Positions 3,097 to 45,000 of a DNA stretch of 64,000 nt are shown in pieces. Source of the stretch: Aureococcus anophagefferens (Eukaryota; Sar; Pelagophyceae; Pelagomonadales; Pelagomonadaceae); NCBI RefSeq assembly GCF_000186865.1, contig NW_008705562.1, forward strand, positions 2,768,821 through 2,832,820, read 5' to 3'. The position numbers and the translations under genes were made by a program. The number at the start of each line of letters is the position of its first letter. Within the stretch, counting starts at the first letter, position 1. The notes beneath the pieces were generated by a model. The model did no database searches. It saw nothing but the letters and a program-made list of their open reading frames with translations, and was not told the origin of the DNA.

Positions 3097-4663
3097 ACTG
3101 CGCGACGTGTGCTAAGTGGGCTGCCCCGCACGCTGCACCAACATTAGACGATTTCAGATTGGCTTTCCAACAAATTGTATCACTAAGTTTACGTCGGTAT
3201 TGATGCTGCGACACGAAGTCCGCGCTCGGCTATGGACGAAAAAGTCGTCTTCACCAGCCCGTAGCTCGACGCAGGAACCGAGTCAAGAGACAACCCCCGC
3301 TGCAGCGAGGATCGGAAGCCTGTCGACGACACATTCCCCGCGGGGATGTCACTCCCCAGGATTGCGTCGCGTCGCGCACGAGGCGCCGCAAGGGGTCGGG
3401 AAAGGGTTGCTCGCGTCCCCCGCACCCTTTTCCGTCGTGTTCGAGTTCACGGAGCGTCGGGGATCGTTCGTCTATGTAGTGTGGGAGTCCCCTTTGATGC
3501 GCTCGACCATAGAGGTCGAAGACTTTGACTTCCAAGGTCTCCGCGACACGTGCGCGCACCCCGCGCCGCGCAGCACCCGGATCGGGTTCAACCGTCGCGC
3601 GAGGCTGCCCCTGGATCCCGGCAGCCAATGGGACCCCGAGCACGAGCCGCGCGGCCCCAGAGCACCGGCGCGGGGGCTCTGCGCGGCCCGGGCGCGCCAT
3701 CACGAACGACTCGGCGCCGAGCAGCCCGTCCCCCGGGCGGCCCGTCGCGCTTCCAAGCCGAAGAAACGCCGGAATATGTCACCGTACATGGCCACGGCCG
3801 CGCGCAGCCCGCCAGGGTGGGCGCGGGGGCCCAACTCGCCGACTTCGGTTTGAGTTCCAGGAACTCACGCTCTTGGCACTTACCGTCGGCCGGAACGCAA
3901 CATTAACTTATTGAACCTAGAAGTTTACTTTCGAAAAAGGGTTGGACGTCGTCGATGATGGTCGCACGATCTCTGATGCTGGGTTTGGCATGTTCCAGGC
4001 CAGGGGGAGAGAAACTGAGCACACTTCGCAATGGCAATTCGGGGTCGAGCATCCCAAATCTTCAGCCCGCTCGTCTCGGGAGCACGCAGAAGCCGAGATC
4101 ATTTTCCCCTCTCTCTCCGCGCGCGCGAGGCGGTCCCCGCGGCGAGGTTCTGGGTGCTCGAAGGTACTATGCCAAGCGAACCCCTCTCTCGTCGCCCCGA
4201 TTCCGGCCGGCAGCCGCGCGGGCATAGTACCTTCGGGCGCCCCAGACCCCAGACGCAGCCCCGCTCCGCCGACCAACCACATCGTCTCCATCAAAAGACG
4301 ACGTTTCAGCCGAGCGATACATTTCACTGCAACTTGGTCCGTCGATTAGTAAGTGCTTGGCATTCGATTGCCAAGAGCGCGAGTTCGCGTAACTCGGCGC
4401 CACTGCGGGAGATACATTAATTTCGATACATAATTTTTGTTTGAAGCCTCGGACAGAAGAATCTGAAATCGTCTATTTCCCGTAGCGCAGTTTGTGTGCT
4501 GCCGGACGATGGGCGCCCTCGAGCGCTAACCGCTCGATGGGTGCGCGGTCCTAGGCGCCTCCGCGCGTTGCCTCGAGACCCCCGGCGAGCCACTGATCCT
4601 CGTGGACGCGTCTAGACGGCAACGCCGGCTCGGCGCCTCGAGGCAACCTCCGCGCGGACACCG
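3097..4663. other. Gene-free stretch of about 1.57 kb
   Basis: No reading frame here has convincing protein character. The base composition is less GC-rich than in the genes, with T/A-rich patches near 3150-3200, 3890-3950 and 4400-4490. It contains the inverted repeat at 4146-4248, small hairpins at about 4357-4376 and 4378-4401, and an 11-bp inverted pair (4567-4577 with 4637-4647) just upstream of the next start codon. It probably serves as promoter space for the genes on both sides. Confidence 0.6.
4146..4248. repeat. Inverted repeat, 28-nt arms, 47-nt loop
   Basis: The left arm (4146-4173) and right arm (4221-4248) are reverse complements apart from about four mismatches; the inner 15 bases of each arm match perfectly (GGTACTATGCC and flank). 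The pair could form a long hairpin in DNA or RNA. No clear direct repeat flanks it, so a MITE origin is not shown. Confidence 0.8.
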
Positions 4664-15835: not shown

Positions 15836-18800
15836 ATGGCCGAGGCGCCGGACGATGGGGAGGACTGGGATGCCCAGTTCGACGCCATCTTCGACAACGT
15901 GCGCGGCCTCGTCGACAACGACTCGCTGCACGACAGCGACAGCGTGACGACCATGAGCCCGCGGCTCGAGGCGGTCTACGACTGCTCCCCGGCGGGCAGC
16001 GACCACGTGCCGACGCCGCGGGAGCCCGTCGCCGAGGAGGTCGCGGAGGACGTCGAGGTCGTCTTCACGCCCGCCGAGGCGCCGGCGGAGGAGGTTGCCG
16101 AGGAGCCGGCGGCGGACGCGGCGCGGCTCGGCGCCGCGCTGCGGCTCGAGGGCCGGCCCGGCGCGCTCGAGGGCCTGACGCGCGCGGAGCGGGCCCACGC
16201 CGTCACGGCGGCGGCGACGCGCGTCGCCGAGGCGGCCGAGGCGGCGGGCCACGCCGAGGGCGACGGCGGCGCGCTCGCCGTGTTGAGGGTCGTCGCGCGG
16301 CTGTTGCGCGGCGACGCGACGGTCGCGCGGTGTCGCGGCGGCGAGTACGGCGGCGGCCGGGGCCTCACGTCGAAGATCAGCGAGGAGCGCTTCGCCTACC
16401 GCGTGCGCGCGCGCCGGAGCGCCGCCGCCGTCGTCGAGGCCGCGCTGCGGCCCGACCGCGTCGACCCGAAGCCCGCGCCGTTCGGCCTGGCGCGCGAGCG
16501 CCGCGACGACCTGCGCCGGGGCGAGGCGCCCGCGGCGAGGAAGCAGCCCCCGGCGGGCCCGGGCCACAAGCTGCTGCGCAAGTCCCTGCTCGGGGGCATG
16601 TTCGCCGTCCAGGCCAAGGCCGGCGGCGCGGACCTCGCGGAGCGGCGGTTCCGGAAGAACCTCGGTTTGGTCGACGGCACGGAGTCGTCGGCCGTGCCCG
16701 GCTACGAGAACGGCGCCTTCGTGTTTTTGTGGTCCTTCCGCGAGTGGGTGCCCTGCCGCGTGGAGCGCATGCGCATGGCGTCCGCGGGGCCCGGCGAGCC
16801 CAAGGTGAGCGAGGTCCTGCTCCACGAGCTCGGCCGCGACGACCTCAGCGACAAGTGGATCCCCGTCGCGTCGCCGCGCATCCGCACGGTGGTCAACACC
16901 TGCGTCCCCTCGCGGCGGCGCGGCGACCTGCCCAAGCCCGGCACGCGCGTGCGGAGCTCGTGGTCCGCGCGCGACGAGGCCCACTTCTGGAAGGCCCGGG
17001 GCCCGCGCGGCGGCCCCGCGGGCACGGTCATCAAGCTCGCGCCGGAGCGCGACGCGGCCCAGGTCGAGCTCGAGGGCCTGCTCGCGACGGAGCGCCTCTG
17101 GCTGCCGCTCCATGCGTTACGAGCCCTCGACGCGTCGGACGACGGCGGCGCCGCGGTCGCCGCGCGCGCGAGGGCCGCGGACCTCGTCCGCGCGGCCATC
17201 TCGCAGCACGAGCCCGTGCGCTTCGGCCGCGTCGTCACGCGCGTCATGCGCGGGCAGCGGGCCCTCGTGAGCCTGAGCTACGAGGACGAGAGCCGCGGCC
17301 TCGGGCCCGAGAAGATCGCGTGGACGGTCTGCGCGACGACGCCGGGGCGGAAGAAGCGCGAGGACCCGGGCGCGCTCTTCGTCAAGCAGATCGAGCAGGA
17401 GGAGGCGGAGATCCGGGCCCACCGCGACGCCCAGCGCCACGACGCGCGGCGCCACGCCTTCGCCGAGGAGCGCCACCTCGCGGGCATCCACGCGGACGGT
17501 TCCGGCGGCGCGCACCTGAACCACGACATCTTCGCGCTCCTGGAGGAGGACGACAGCGACGTCGAGGGCGAGCTCCACGAGGACGAGCTCCACGCGCACC
17601 GCGCGACCTGGCGCGTCATATCGGACCCGGACGAGCCGCGGCACGCGAACGGCCTCTGGGCGGGCCCGCCGTTCCTCCGGAAGCGCGTCCCCGACCAGCT
17701 CGTCAAGGAGCTGGGCTTCAAGCCCGAGGTGCTGGGCGACCGCGCCTGGACCGACGCGTCGCGGGCGCGGCTCTGCGACGCCGTGGCGCCGCGGCTCGAC
17801 GTCTGCCGCGGCGCGCTCGTCTTCGCGCGGTCCTGCGGGCGCACGTCGACGGAGCTCGCCAGGGCAGGACAAGAGAGCGAAATTCCCAACTTCAAAGGCT
17901 CATATCTCGGCCGATTTCAACTCGTTTCGGCTGATTTTTGGACGAGCGATCATCTTTCGGAACGGCCTCGAAGCGTGGATGCTTTTTCTGGAACGCGCGC
18001 GCGCGGAACACTCACGTTGAAGCGACGTTGAATCTCTCTTGTCCTGCCCAGGAGCTCGCGTCCGTCCGCGAGCGCAAGTGGGAGCAGCACGTCTACTGCC
18101 ACCTCAAGGACGTGCCGTCGTTCCTGACGTTCCGCTCGATCATCTGCCCCCGGGGCTACCTCGAGCTCGTCTGCGCGCTCGCCTGGCGCGCGGACGCGGG
18201 CGACCGGGCCGAGGCCGCGGTCCGCGGCAAGCACGCGTTCACGCTCGAGCTCGGCGACTGGGCCGAGCTGGGCTACGGGGCGCACCTGGAGTGGCTCGAC
18301 GACGCGGAGCGGCGGTTCCTCTGCCGCGCGCTGACGATGCGCCTCGAGAGCCGCCACGGCGCGCCCGTCTTCCTCGTCAAGAAGTCGAAACACGTGCTCT
18401 GGCCGACGCCGGAGAGCCGCTGCGCCTTCCCGCCGGGCGACGGCGCCGTGGACGTGCCTTTGGAGGAGCCCTGCGCGCGCACGGGGTCGTCGCGGTCCGG
18501 GCCCTGCGCGCCGGGGCCCCACGGCGCCGCGGACGGCGAGATCCTCTGGCGGTCCGTCGCGCGGCTCGCGACGCCGACGGCGTCCGCGCGCGACGTCGAG
18601 GACGACGGCCTGGGGCGCGTCTCCATGCAGCGCTGGCTCGTGTCCGCGCGGCGCGACGGCGGCGCCGTGGCGCTCCAGGCGAAGCACGTGCCGTCGGGCG
18701 CGACGGCGTACTTCCGCGCGGACGCGGGCCACTGGTGCGACCTCGGGCGCCTCCGCGCGCCGCTCCAGTGGCTGAGCAAGGCACAGCAGCGGGGCCTCGC

Positions 18801-38234: not shown

Positions 38235-39861
38235 ATGGTCGTCGAGGAGGCAGCCCCGGAGGGCTACGCCGTCGTCAAGTACCTCGGGAAGCGGTACAAG
38301 GTGCGCCTCGCCAAGCCGACGACGGCCAAGAGCTTGCTGAGAGCCATCTCGAAGAACTACCTGCGCAACACCAACCCCGCGACCCTCGTGCTCCACACGG
38401 AGTTCGAGACGACGCTCGGGCGCGACGACCTCGTGCACCCCGGCTGGACGCTGCGCTGCACGCCCGCGCCGCCCGCGCCGCGGGCCGACGCGGGCGCGCC
38501 GCGGCCGCCGAGCCGCCTCGACCGGTGCAAGCCCTGCGGCGACGAAGCCGAGGGCGCCAAGCAGGACGACGGCGGCGACGACGACCCCCTGTCGTCCGTG
38601 CCCGTCTACTACGCGAGGCGCCGGCGCTTCCGGCGCGGCGAGGCCGGCGCGGCGGCGCACTTCCAGAAGTTGGGCTACGTGGTCTTCGCGGCCGCGCTCG
38701 ACGGCGCGGAGGCCGCGACGTGCCTCGACAAGCTCTGGACCTTCCTCGAGAAGGTCGGGCCGGGCCTCGACCGGCGCGACCCGTCGACGTGGGCCGACGC
38801 GTGGCCGCCCGGCGTCGGGGGCGCGGGCATCCTGTCGATGTTCGGCGTGGGCCAGTGCGAGTCCAAGTGGTTCGCGCGGACGCGGCCGCGGGTCCGCGAG
38901 TGCTTCGCGGAGCTCTGGCGCGCCATGGCCCACCCGCGCGCGGACCCGCGGGATCTGGACGCGCCCGGCGGCCTCTGCGTGTCGCTCGACGGCGGCTGCG
39001 CGTGGCGGCCGGGCCTCAGGGGCCAGAAGGGCTGGCAGCACGTGGACCAGAACCCGCTGCTCAAGCCCGGCTTCGAATGCATCCAGGGCCTCGTCTCGCT
39101 CACGCGGACGAGCAAGGCCGCGGGCGGGAACCTGCTCGTGGAGCGGAGCCACGCGGACGTCTTCCCCAGATTAGTGGACCTGTACCCGGAGCAGGTCCGG
39201 AGCCGCGACGGCGACGACTTCTTCTCGCTGCCGCGCGCGGCCGCGCGCCGCGACGGCCTCCTCGGCGGCGACGGCGGCGGCCGCCACGTCGTCGTCCACC
39301 TCGAGGCCGGCGACCTGCTGTGCCGAAACCAAATCTTCAACCCGACTTCAATGTGAGCGTATTCGAATGTTTTGATACAAGCTCTTCGGCTGGGCTTCGA
39401 GAACTCGACGAGAGCGATCGATCCGTCCAAAAATCAGCCGAATCGACTTTGATTTGACCGAGCTAGAGAATTCTCAAGTTTGGTCAGGACCACCCAAACC
39501 AGTGGTTGGTTTCGGCACAGGCGACCTGCTGTGCTGGGACTCGCGGACGGTCCACTGCTCCTGGCCCGGCGACGGCCTCCTCGACGAGCCCGGCGCGCCG
39601 CCGGCCAAAGCCGACCAGCTCCCGACGGACCGCCTCGCGCGCGCGGCGCTCTACGTGTCCTTCACGCCGCGGTCCCTCGTGCCGCCGGACGTCGCCGCGA
39701 AGCGCCGCCAGGCCGTCGCCGACGGCGCGACGACGACGCACTGGGCGAGCGTCTGCCGGCGCCGCGACATCGTCCCCAAGGACATGTCCGACTACGAGCG
39801 CTCCCGCTTCCGCGCCCAGCCGACGCCGCCGCTGTCGCCCGAGGCCCTAATGCTGATTTAG
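38235..39861 (+). CDS. Phytanoyl-CoA dioxygenase-like protein, interrupted by an introner
   Basis: Exon 1 is 38235-39309 and exon 2 is 39521-39861; joined they give 471 residues with no frameshift. The family is Fe(II)/2-oxoglutarate-dependent oxygenases. The iron ligands are likely HxD in GWQHVDQNP (about residue 275) and the distal His in WDSRTVHCSWPG, just after the splice point; an Arg in the following strand would bind 2-oxoglutarate. The N-terminal 70 residues are a ubiquitin-like-looking beta segment (KYLGKRYKVRLAKPTTAKSL) joined by a Pro-rich linker. The intron is an introner; without splicing the second iron ligand would be lost. Substrate unknown. Confidence 0.85.
39318..39520 (+). 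mobile_element. Introner A, 203 bp, inside the dioxygenase gene
   Basis: The termini are a perfect 14-bp inverted repeat: CTGTGCCGAAACCA (39318-39331) and its complement (39507-39520). The 8-bp direct repeat GCGACCTG flanks it at 39310-39317 and 39521-39528. Removing 39310-39520 (211 bp) as a GC-AG intron restores the codons for GDLLCWDSR exactly. The donor is the first GC of the left repeat; the AG is the end of the right terminus. The interior is AT-richer than the exons and nearly the same as introner B. Confidence 0.95.
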
Positions 39862-42044: not shown

Positions 42045-45000
42045 GCGGCGTCGCGGGCGCGTCCGCGGCGGCCGCCGCGCGGGAGTCGTCCGCGCGGTCG
42101 CAGATGCAGCGCTGGAGCGCGCGCGCGTCGCGGTGGTGCGCGGCCGCGAGGCGCCACTCGCGGTGGACGTCGGGCTTCGACTTGAGGGGCGCGTGGAGCG
42201 TGAGCACGGGCAGGTTGTCGCTCGCGAGCGCGTCGTCGACGAGCCGCGCGTCGCCGAGGCTCACGACGAGCACCGGCGTGACGCCCGAGAGCGCGTGCTG
42301 CGCGGAGTACCAGAACTGGAGCTCGGGCCCGCGGACGGCGGCGAAGTGGCGCCGCCAGGCCGTGGACCGGCGCCAGAGGGGCCCCGCCCAGGCCGCGCCG
42401 AGGCGCCGCGCGGCGGACCGGCGGTCGCGGCGCCAGTCGCGCGCCTTGCGCCGCTGCGAGAAGAGCTGCTCGAGCTCCGGCTCGCAGGGCAGCGCCTCGA
42501 GGAGCGCCAGCAGCCGCTGCCAGACCGTCGCCGGCTGGGACGGGGGCCGCGCGCCGCCGCGGCCCGCCGCCGCGACGGCCGCGGCCGACGCGGCGTCCGC
42601 GTCCGCGTCCGCGCGGCGCGCGGCGCGGGCGCCCGCGCGCGCGCAGCACGCCGCGCGGCGCAGGGCCGCCGCGAGGCCCCCGTCGCCGGGCGCGGGCGGC
42701 GCGGCGCCGTCGCCTTCGCCATCCGCGGCGTCGGCGGCGTCGGCGGAGTCGGCGGCGTCGGCGGCGTCGGCGGCGTCGGCGCGCGCCGCCGCGGCGACGA
42801 GCGCGTCCGCGGCGGCGTCGCAGCGCGCCGCGGCGCGGCGCGCGGCCGTCGCCCGGGCCACGCGGTGCGCGCGGCGCTGGAGCCGGTGCCGAGCGTCGCC
42901 AGCACCCCCAACACGTCCGCGCGCACCGACGCGGCGACGGCGAGCGCGAGGACCAGCGCGCCGAAGACGAGGAGCGTGAAGGCGGGCTGGGACCACTCGA
43001 GCAAACCCCGCACCTGCTCGCCGAGGCGCACGGCGTCCTTGAGCGAGTTCTGGATCTCGACGGCGCCGTGGCGCGCGCGGCGGAACCGCGACAGCAGCCC
43101 CGTGCCCGCGACGGCGCCGGCGTCGCCGTCGCCCGGCGCGTCGGCGTCGTCGCCGGGCGGGGCCTCGTCGCAGGCCACCTCGAGCTCGGCCTCGCGCGCG
43201 TCCAAATCCCGAAACGCGCGCCGCGCGGCCGCGTCGCCCAGCAGCTCCAGGCGGCACCGGAGCTGCGCGCGCGGCGGCGCCGCGGGCGCGTCGTCGCCGT
43301 CCGCCGACGCGTAGCCGCCGTCGTCGTCGGAGACGTCGTCGCGCGCGTCCGCGCGCGGCGCGCCGTCCGCGGCGCCCGGCAGCAGCGCGTCGCGCGGCGG
43401 GCGCAGCGGAAGCCAGCCGCCGGGCTCGAGGAATCCCGGGAGGCCGTCGTCGCCGCCCGCGGCGGCGACGGCGCCGAGGGGCACCTCGGCGACGCCCAGC
43501 AGCGTGGCGTCCGGGTCCCGCGTCGGCGACAGGCCGAAGCAGTCGCCGCCGTCGTCCTCCCCGTCCCCCTCGCCGCGGAGCAGCGCGCCCAGGGACCGCA
43601 GGGACCCGGCCGACGGCGCGCCGCGGCTCAACGCCGGCGCCATGCGGTGCGGGTAGTAGGCGGGGCTCGCGCGGTCCCGGAAGGTCCGCGCGAAGAGNNN
43701 NNNNNNNNNNNNNNNNNNNNNNNNNNNNNNNNNNNNNNNNNNNNNNNNNNNNNNNNNNNNNNNNNNNNNNNNNNNNNNNNNNNNNNNNNNNNNNNNNNNN
43801 NNNNNNNNNNNNNNNNNNNNNNNNNNNGTCGCGGCTCGGCGGCGCCGCGGCCTCCGCGGCGTCGCGGTCGTCGTCCGGCGCCGGCCCGGGCGTCCGCGCC
43901 GCCGGCGGCGCGACGGGCGACGGCCGCCCCGTGGCCCACTGGACGAGGCGCTCGGCCTCGTAGACCGCGCGCGACCGGAGGCCGACGCGCGGCGGCGCGG
44001 ACGTCGACAGCCGCGGCTTCGCCGCGAAGGCCGCGGCCTCCGGCGCCGCCGTCGCGTCGCGCCGCGGGTCCTCGACCTCGGCGAGCCGGTCCCAGGCCCA
44101 GGACCGCACGAGGCGCCGGCCGTCGCCCGCGACGTCCGCGACGGGCTCGAGCGCGGCGACGCCGACGTCGACGCACCGCAGCGCGCCCCGGCCCGCGACG
44201 CTCGCCGCGGCGGCGTCGCCGGCGTCGCGGCAGGCGCGCCGCGCGTCCGCCAGCAGGTCGCCCGCGCCCGGCGCGCCCTCGGGCGCGCGCACCGCCGCGC
44301 AGACGTCGCTCGCGGCCGCGGCGGCCGCGGCCGCGACGGGCGCGAGCGTCGGCGCGGGCACGTACTTGAGCCGCACGCGGGGCCGCGCGTCGCCGCCGGC
44401 GTAGGGCTCGAGGCCGTCGACGCCGAGCAGCGCCACGCGGAGCACGGCGACGTCGCCGCGCGTCCGCGGGCCCCGGTCGCCGGCCTCGCCGAGCCGCCGC
44501 CGCGCCCAGTCGCCCTCGAGGCGCTGGAGGCCCAGGGCGCCCAGCCCGCAGACGCAGAGCAGCACGGGCAGCGCGAGGAAGTGGTCCCGGGCCCACAAGA
44601 GGCACGCCGCCAGGCACACCGCGACGGCGCCGCCGGACGCCGCCGCGTCGTCCCACCTGTGTGCAAATCAACCACTGGTTTGGGACGTCCCGACCAAACT
44701 TTGAAATTCTCTAGCTCGGTCAAATCGAAGTCGATTCGGCTGATTTTTAGACGGATCGATTGCTCTCATCGAGTTCTCGAAGAACCAGTGGATGTGATCG
44801 TGCCAAACATTCGAATACGCTCACATTGAAGTCGAGTTGAAGATTTGATTTGCACACAGCGTCCCACCGGAGCAGGCGGTCGACCGCGGACACGAGGCCC
44901 TGGACCCAGGCCACGACGACGAAGAGCCGCTTGAGCAGCTCCACGGTCGCCGCCGGCGACGGCGCGTCGTCGCGCGGCGGCCGGTCCTTGGCGCGCCGCG

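Follow-up and report, generated by a model that had tools for sequence, protein, structure and literature searches.

A gene for an Fe/2OG oxygenase of Aureococcus anophagefferens is interrupted by a 203-bp element which is very probably a recent, non-autonomous transposon with terminal inverted repeats (TIRs), an introner, and which would be spliced as a GC-AG intron together with the first copy of its target-site duplication (TSD). The insertion lies at 39310-39528 of the window, i.e. the whole stretch of 64,000 nucleotides of contig NW_008705562.1 that was analysed. According to the proposed mechanism, insertion of the element would duplicate 8 bp of the target. The first TSD copy, beginning with GC on the coding strand, would then become the 5' splice site, and the inverted element end, finishing in CAG, would provide the 3' splice site. 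As removal of the first TSD copy and the element leaves the second TSD copy, the mRNA would be exactly the ancestral one.

Structure of the insertion

The two copies of the octamer GCGACCTG at 39310-39317 and 39521-39528 (plus strand), the second being exonic, were read directly and recovered in a repeat search. Between them lies the element at 39318-39520 (plus strand), a MITE-type introner of what is called family 1 here, with the outline CTGTGCC...GGCACAG. It was delimited by direct reading, its repeats and the scored copies, and its length and its place between the octamers are as an earlier note on this DNA had given them. The same note had described a perfect inverted terminus of 14 bp. 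The terminus is indeed perfect, but its real length is 15 bp, as the inverted-repeat search gave the left TIR CTGTGCCGAAACCAA at 39318-39332 and the right TIR TTGGTTTCGGCACAG at 39506-39520 (plus strand). The GC at the start of the first TSD copy is the proposed co-opted donor and the final AG of the right TIR the proposed acceptor.

With 48.8% GC, the element differs clearly from the window (72.4%). Its 14-mer end was found at just two places in the window, even when two mismatches were allowed; shuffled controls contained 0.28 matches on average and reached two matches in 2 of 100 shuffles. The raw direct repeat at the insertion is 15 nt long (GGCGACCTGCTGTGC) because the next six bases of the host, CTGTGC, happen to equal the start of the element. 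Comparison with other copies set the boundary at CTGTG...CACAG and thus the TSD at 8 bp. A perfect 8-bp TSD was present directly at the match boundaries, with no boundary fitting, in 24 of 30 listed copies.

Elsewhere in the window, an 81-bp stretch at 4567-4647 (70% GC) has an 8-bp direct repeat, CTCCGCGC, and inverted ends agreeing in 11 of 12 positions, among the matches listed; this arrangement may be due to chance. A scan of the reversed sequence for TSDs with TIRs provides no control since reversal keeps direct and inverted repeats. The Rfam scan of the window gave no match, and a run of N, either an assembly gap or a withheld stretch, occupies approx. 43700-43830.

The oxygenase gene and its reading frame

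Frame analysis and an alignment of relatives placed exon 1 of the PhyH-like gene at 38235-39309 (plus strand), with the ATG at 38235 and the HxD motif (WQHVDQ), and exon 2 at 39521-39861 (plus strand), with the distal His (TVHC), the C-terminus and the TAG at 39859-39861. The proposed phase 1 GC-AG intron of 211 bp at 39310-39520 (plus strand) consists of the first TSD copy and the element; it was defined by the frame, the other copies and the relatives and separates the HxD motif from the distal His. With this segment removed, a single frame runs from the ATG at 38235 to the TAG at 39859 and encodes 471 aa, reading ...HLEAG-DLLCWDSRTVHC... across the junction. The exact restoration of the frame by excision of octamer and element, stated from the letters alone in the earlier note, was thus confirmed at the DNA level, and 39310-39520 would accordingly be the segment spliced out in the cell, as far as can be predicted from the sequence.

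The assignment to the Fe/2OG oxygenases is backed by the relatives P0004-P0007, in which PF05721 (PhyH) is present and which have W267-H269-D271 and the WDSRTVH stretch in common with the window protein. The latter itself matched PF05721 below threshold (E 0.02, 15.6 bits vs. a cut-off of 22), and its two exons searched alone gave no match to any family. H269 and D271 are invariant across the eight aligned sequences.

If the segment is kept, the frame stops at 39354. This would fit an unspliced insertion in an oxygenase that has become a pseudogene in this strain, but the remainder of the frame is intact and 76 of the 78 coding copies share this arrangement (see below), which makes a pseudogene extremely improbable.

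Copies across the genome

The exact 14-mer end was found at 131 places in the genome (65 forward, 66 reverse) and not once in the reversed control. The degenerate end pattern CTGTGYSSAAWYCA gave 1799 matches (891 + 908) compared to 2 (2 + 0) in its control. Further copies with the same ends, as anticipated in the earlier note, are therefore abundant: 1799 ends correspond to roughly 900 elements, and to more if many of them have one matching end only. An 18-nt internal core matched at 116 + 132 places (control 0). All of the 40 copies scored, out of 1694 first-look candidates, had at least 96% identity.

From the loci L001-L107, 86 distinct copies were extracted. They are no random sample but were drawn from the most similar copies, from 30 of the 131 exact ends and from the first 40 of 248 core matches. 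The TSD copies agreed in 8 of 8 positions in 68 cases, in 7 in 12, in 6 in 4 and in fewer in 2, with copy boundaries fitted within 14 bp from the TSD and the ends, which favours good TSDs. The element was exactly 203 bp long in 73 of the 86 copies. In a comparison of 31 copies that are 203 bp long and share the same ends left and right, six besides the window copy differed from it at a single one of the 175 inner bases, and the insertion is therefore considered recent. The element was presumably moved by a transposase.

Predicted donor and acceptor sites on the coding strand

Five of the 86 copies were dropped due to a poor TSD, a gap, or odd ends or length, and 78 of the 81 analysed copies received a confident coding-strand call. 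The coding strand was called from the codon usage of the joined flanks, which contain one TSD copy, and independently of the first bases of the TSD. The underlying model took the oxygenase gene as its seed and was then retrained on the loci under study, so that its training set overlapped with the loci that it scored.

On the called strand, the TSD starts with GC in 40 copies, GT in 36, GA in one and CG in one. A G[CT] donor was therefore present in 76 of 78 copies against a flank background of 0.203 (p 4e-50), while the antisense mirror end had G[CT] in 19 of 78 copies against 0.220 (p 0.59). Relative to background, GT was enriched approx. 11-fold and GC 3-fold, GA was at 0.2-fold, and GG did not occur. 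The inverted end supplied the acceptor CAG, which in the window is the end of the right TIR, in 77 of 78 copies. The origin of the donor from the duplicated target and of the acceptor from the terminus, put forward earlier for this one insertion, thus extends to nearly all copies, for splice sites predicted from DNA. Elements lie in both orientations relative to the called coding strand (36:42), and the intron phases are distributed 28/22/28 among the family-1 copies. The two exceptions to the donor rule are the GA copy at C13:911828 and the CG copy at C8:1801684; the latter would have GT if read on the opposite strand, and its strand may have been called wrongly. The window donor, GCGACC, resembles a canonical donor only weakly.

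As both ends of the element are equal, it has no means of recognising the direction of transcription. The sense-strand bias should therefore not come from the direction in which a transposase reads its ends. We infer that insertions were afterwards selected for a G[CT] donor on the coding strand, and that the bias among the surviving copies is the outcome of this selection for clean splicing. A transposase that prefers targets starting with GC or GT, with splicing as an incidental consequence, might explain why base preferences reach beyond the donor itself, with G at +3 in 60% of the GC copies and C at -1 in 64% of the GT copies. However, such a preference of a directionless element would give a symmetric bias, and the antisense end of family 1 stays at background. 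We consider this alternative very unlikely.

A second family and variants of the ends

A second multi-copy, introner-like family is represented in the window by a 192-bp element at 17860-18051 with the TSD GAGCTCGC and the ends CAGGGCAGGACAAGAGAG. Its core is related to that of family 1, but its ends are different. The 40 copies scored, out of 1724 candidates, had at least 95% identity. In a sample of 21, namely the window copy and 20 of the 40 listed, the TSDs were exact in 18 cases by eye, in one of these after a one-base shift. Just one of the two ends yields AG in the transcript, and on the AG-yielding strand the TSD starts with GC in 12 copies, GT in 8 and GA in one. Judging from these TSDs, family 2 may occur in one orientation only. 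The mirror end had G[CT] in 9 of 21 copies by eye, above the family-1 background of 0.22; this speaks for a target preference and counts against a pure selection reading. With the plus strand as coding strand, the window copy of family 2 would form a GA-AG intron; this strand was chosen by eye from the translation, at a place where more than one frame is open.

The ends of family 1 fall into matched classes, namely CCGAAACC, CCGAATTC, TGGAATTC, TGCAAATC, TGGAAACC and TGGAAATC. Both ends were identical in 53 of 81 copies, compared to a mean of 21.4 and a maximum of 32 in 5000 shuffles. After exclusion of the copies in which both ends belong to the commonest class, this still applied to 19 of 47 (mean 4.4, maximum 12). 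Of the 48 equal-ended copies of 203 bp, 41 had a nearest inner neighbour of the same end class, and the classes are thus mostly subfamilies. The two ends apparently change together, which would be expected if transposition required matched ends or if the sequence of one end were transferred to the other. The idea that variant ends always lie 5' in the intron was dropped, as the larger set has cases both ways and the ends usually match.

Public proteins at the junction

P0001 (ENA, 471 aa, 99% identical, 33 member sequences) is continuous across the oxygenase junction; it would stem from an allele that lacks the insertion or be a model with the intron spliced out. The five more distant relatives P0003-P0007, of which P0003 is at 73% in the alignment, are continuous there as well. 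P0002, the public A. anophagefferens gene model JL721_5867, is the only named one seen for this locus. It does not use the GC-AG pair and retains 42 element-coded residues, so that a named A. anophagefferens record has the same element at this position. An internal GT-AG pair at 39353-39437 (plus strand) is apparently used in this model, as the residues RNQIFNPTSIRIDFDLTELENSQVWSGPPKPVVGFGTG were matched by eye.

P0002 would be correct if the element were partially exonised, i.e. if the spliceosome removed only the internal 85 nt at 39353-39437 and left 42 extra residues in front of the catalytic WDSRTVHC. The model has exactly those residues, in frame, and the internal donor GTGAGCG looks good when compared with the consensus. 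None of the six other aligned relatives (P0001 and P0003-P0007) has residues there, however, and P0002 also lacks two other stretches of P0001. With internal sites, the donor rule at the TSD start (76 of 78 copies) would be pointless, and in the 42 of 78 copies in opposite orientation to the gene the internal pair is on the other strand. In addition, the named models P0009 and P0011 of another gene are likewise damaged at a GC-donor introner. Exonisation is therefore regarded as highly improbable and the internal intron of P0002 was judged to be an annotation artefact, in favour of excision of the entire 211 bp.

The other gene encodes a tRNA-dihydrouridine synthase and harbours the GC-donor introner at C8:1905303. 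P0008 and P0012 are continuous across this site, P0009 has 12 residues missing, and P0011 is truncated with what look like element-coded residues. P0012 (ENA dihydrouridine synthase) seems by eye to read through an unspliced family-2-like element elsewhere in the gene. It is thus probably derived from genomic DNA without the C8:1905303 insertion, which suggests an insertion polymorphism between strains. At the GA-donor copy at C13:911828, P0058 (60% identical) is continuous, LIGTKIPAKIVDRW, and the alignment of P0059 was uninformative. At the level of DNA and protein, removal would leave the mRNA length unchanged in the oxygenase gene and one other, from which P0002, P0009 and P0011 differ. 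Public A. anophagefferens models of two genes are damaged at GC-donor introners, with residues kept or lost or with truncation.

Possible autonomous partners

Profile searches of the genome for hAT (PF05699) and KDZ (PF18758) transposases gave no match, but carry no information since the positive controls were silent as well. The searches for MULE (PF10551) and Merlin/IS1595 (PF12762) gave no match either, with signals in 3 and 1 of 14 controls, respectively. With PF21787 (P-type RNase H), the control was silent and the genome itself gave one match at C25:178372 (E 1.4e-9). It belongs to a P-type relic at L133:2559-3731 (C25:177958-179130) of 391 codons, in which TAG occurs seven times in frame while TAA and TGA are absent. 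No TIR pair was found around C25:178372, where the left side of the match is N.

Homology to the introner core begins 106 bp past the relic stretch, with 83% over 54 nt for family 1 and 81% over 62 nt for family 2 (E 1e-9 and 3e-12, searched against six loci). This is as expected if the introners are internal-deletion derivatives of such a transposon, and P elements make 8-bp duplications. The fetched loci contain partial core matches at five further places (L014, L016, L025, L066 and L100), however, so that the introner-like neighbourhood of the relic may be due to chance. Two more P-type matches at C2:3449025-3449876 and C11:1393826-1394677, each within approx. 5 kb of a contig end, scored equally, and their frames are open over 563 aa. 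One of these copies (L134, 3.8 kb) contains neither introner-like sequence nor ends, which counts against P-type descent. Descent of the introners from a P-type DNA transposon is, from these sequences, unlikely.

Two larger candidate elements were rejected. A 4.5-kb candidate between opposite TIRs at C1:357296 and 361781 and a 745-bp candidate at C1:2651791 and 2652522 each proved to consist of two separate introners of approx. 200 bp, every one of which lacks one exact end. In the introner literature that was searched, no title or abstract opening names an autonomous partner of these elements. According to excerpts of Gozashti et al. 2022 (PMC9860276), elements mobilising introners were searched for in that study.

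Comparison with known introners

The mechanism proposed here is already known as that of the published A. anophagefferens introners. Huff, Zilberman and Roy reportedly described them in Nature in 2016 as short, non-autonomous TIR elements with TSDs, and the introner is said to carry one splice site, the other being co-opted from the duplicated target. Insertion between nucleosomes also counts among the traits of Aureococcus-type introners. The elements studied here are alike in TIR, TSD, origin of the splice sites and occurrence in both orientations, and no difference was established.

In an excerpt of a review, insertion in both orientations is credited to Huff 2016. Passages of PMC9481584 give a characteristic length of approx. 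210 bp for A. anophagefferens introners, and passages of this source and of PMC7789003 mention TIRs and direct repeats of constant length. In PMC7789003, as excerpted, the splicing motifs of A. anophagefferens are called canonical; about half of the donors of family 1 (40 of 78) are GC. In the parts of Gozashti et al. 2022 (PMC9860276) considered here, GC donors range from 0 to 50% and GA donors from 0 to 40% per introner family. That study likewise contains families with TIR and TSD. In its Fig. 2B, as far as this part of the source goes, a Symbiodinium element similarly carries the 3' site and its TSD gives the 5' site, but with a TSD of 4 bp. The Aureococcus sp. introner in Fig. 2F of the same source brings along both of its splice sites and lengthens the transcript by 12 bp, while the element in the oxygenase gene would add nothing. 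The introner elements of Amoebophrya, in the excerpts of PMC7789003, also combine internal inverted repeats with direct repeats that span the intron boundaries. They differ in their variable direct repeats of 3-5 nt and non-canonical sites, as length, ends and the 8-bp TSD are nearly constant here.

Beyond the known mechanism, this analysis adds the use of GC donors in about half of the copies, two GA-AG candidates, the matched end variants and a P-type relic next to introner-like sequence. The damaged public models at GC-donor introners in two genes bear on the annotation of this genome. The sense-strand test (76 of 78 vs. 19 of 78) separates selection for splicing from target preference by DNA alone, and the oxygenase gene clearly illustrates how a DNA transposon would make a spliceosomal intron and leave the protein unchanged.
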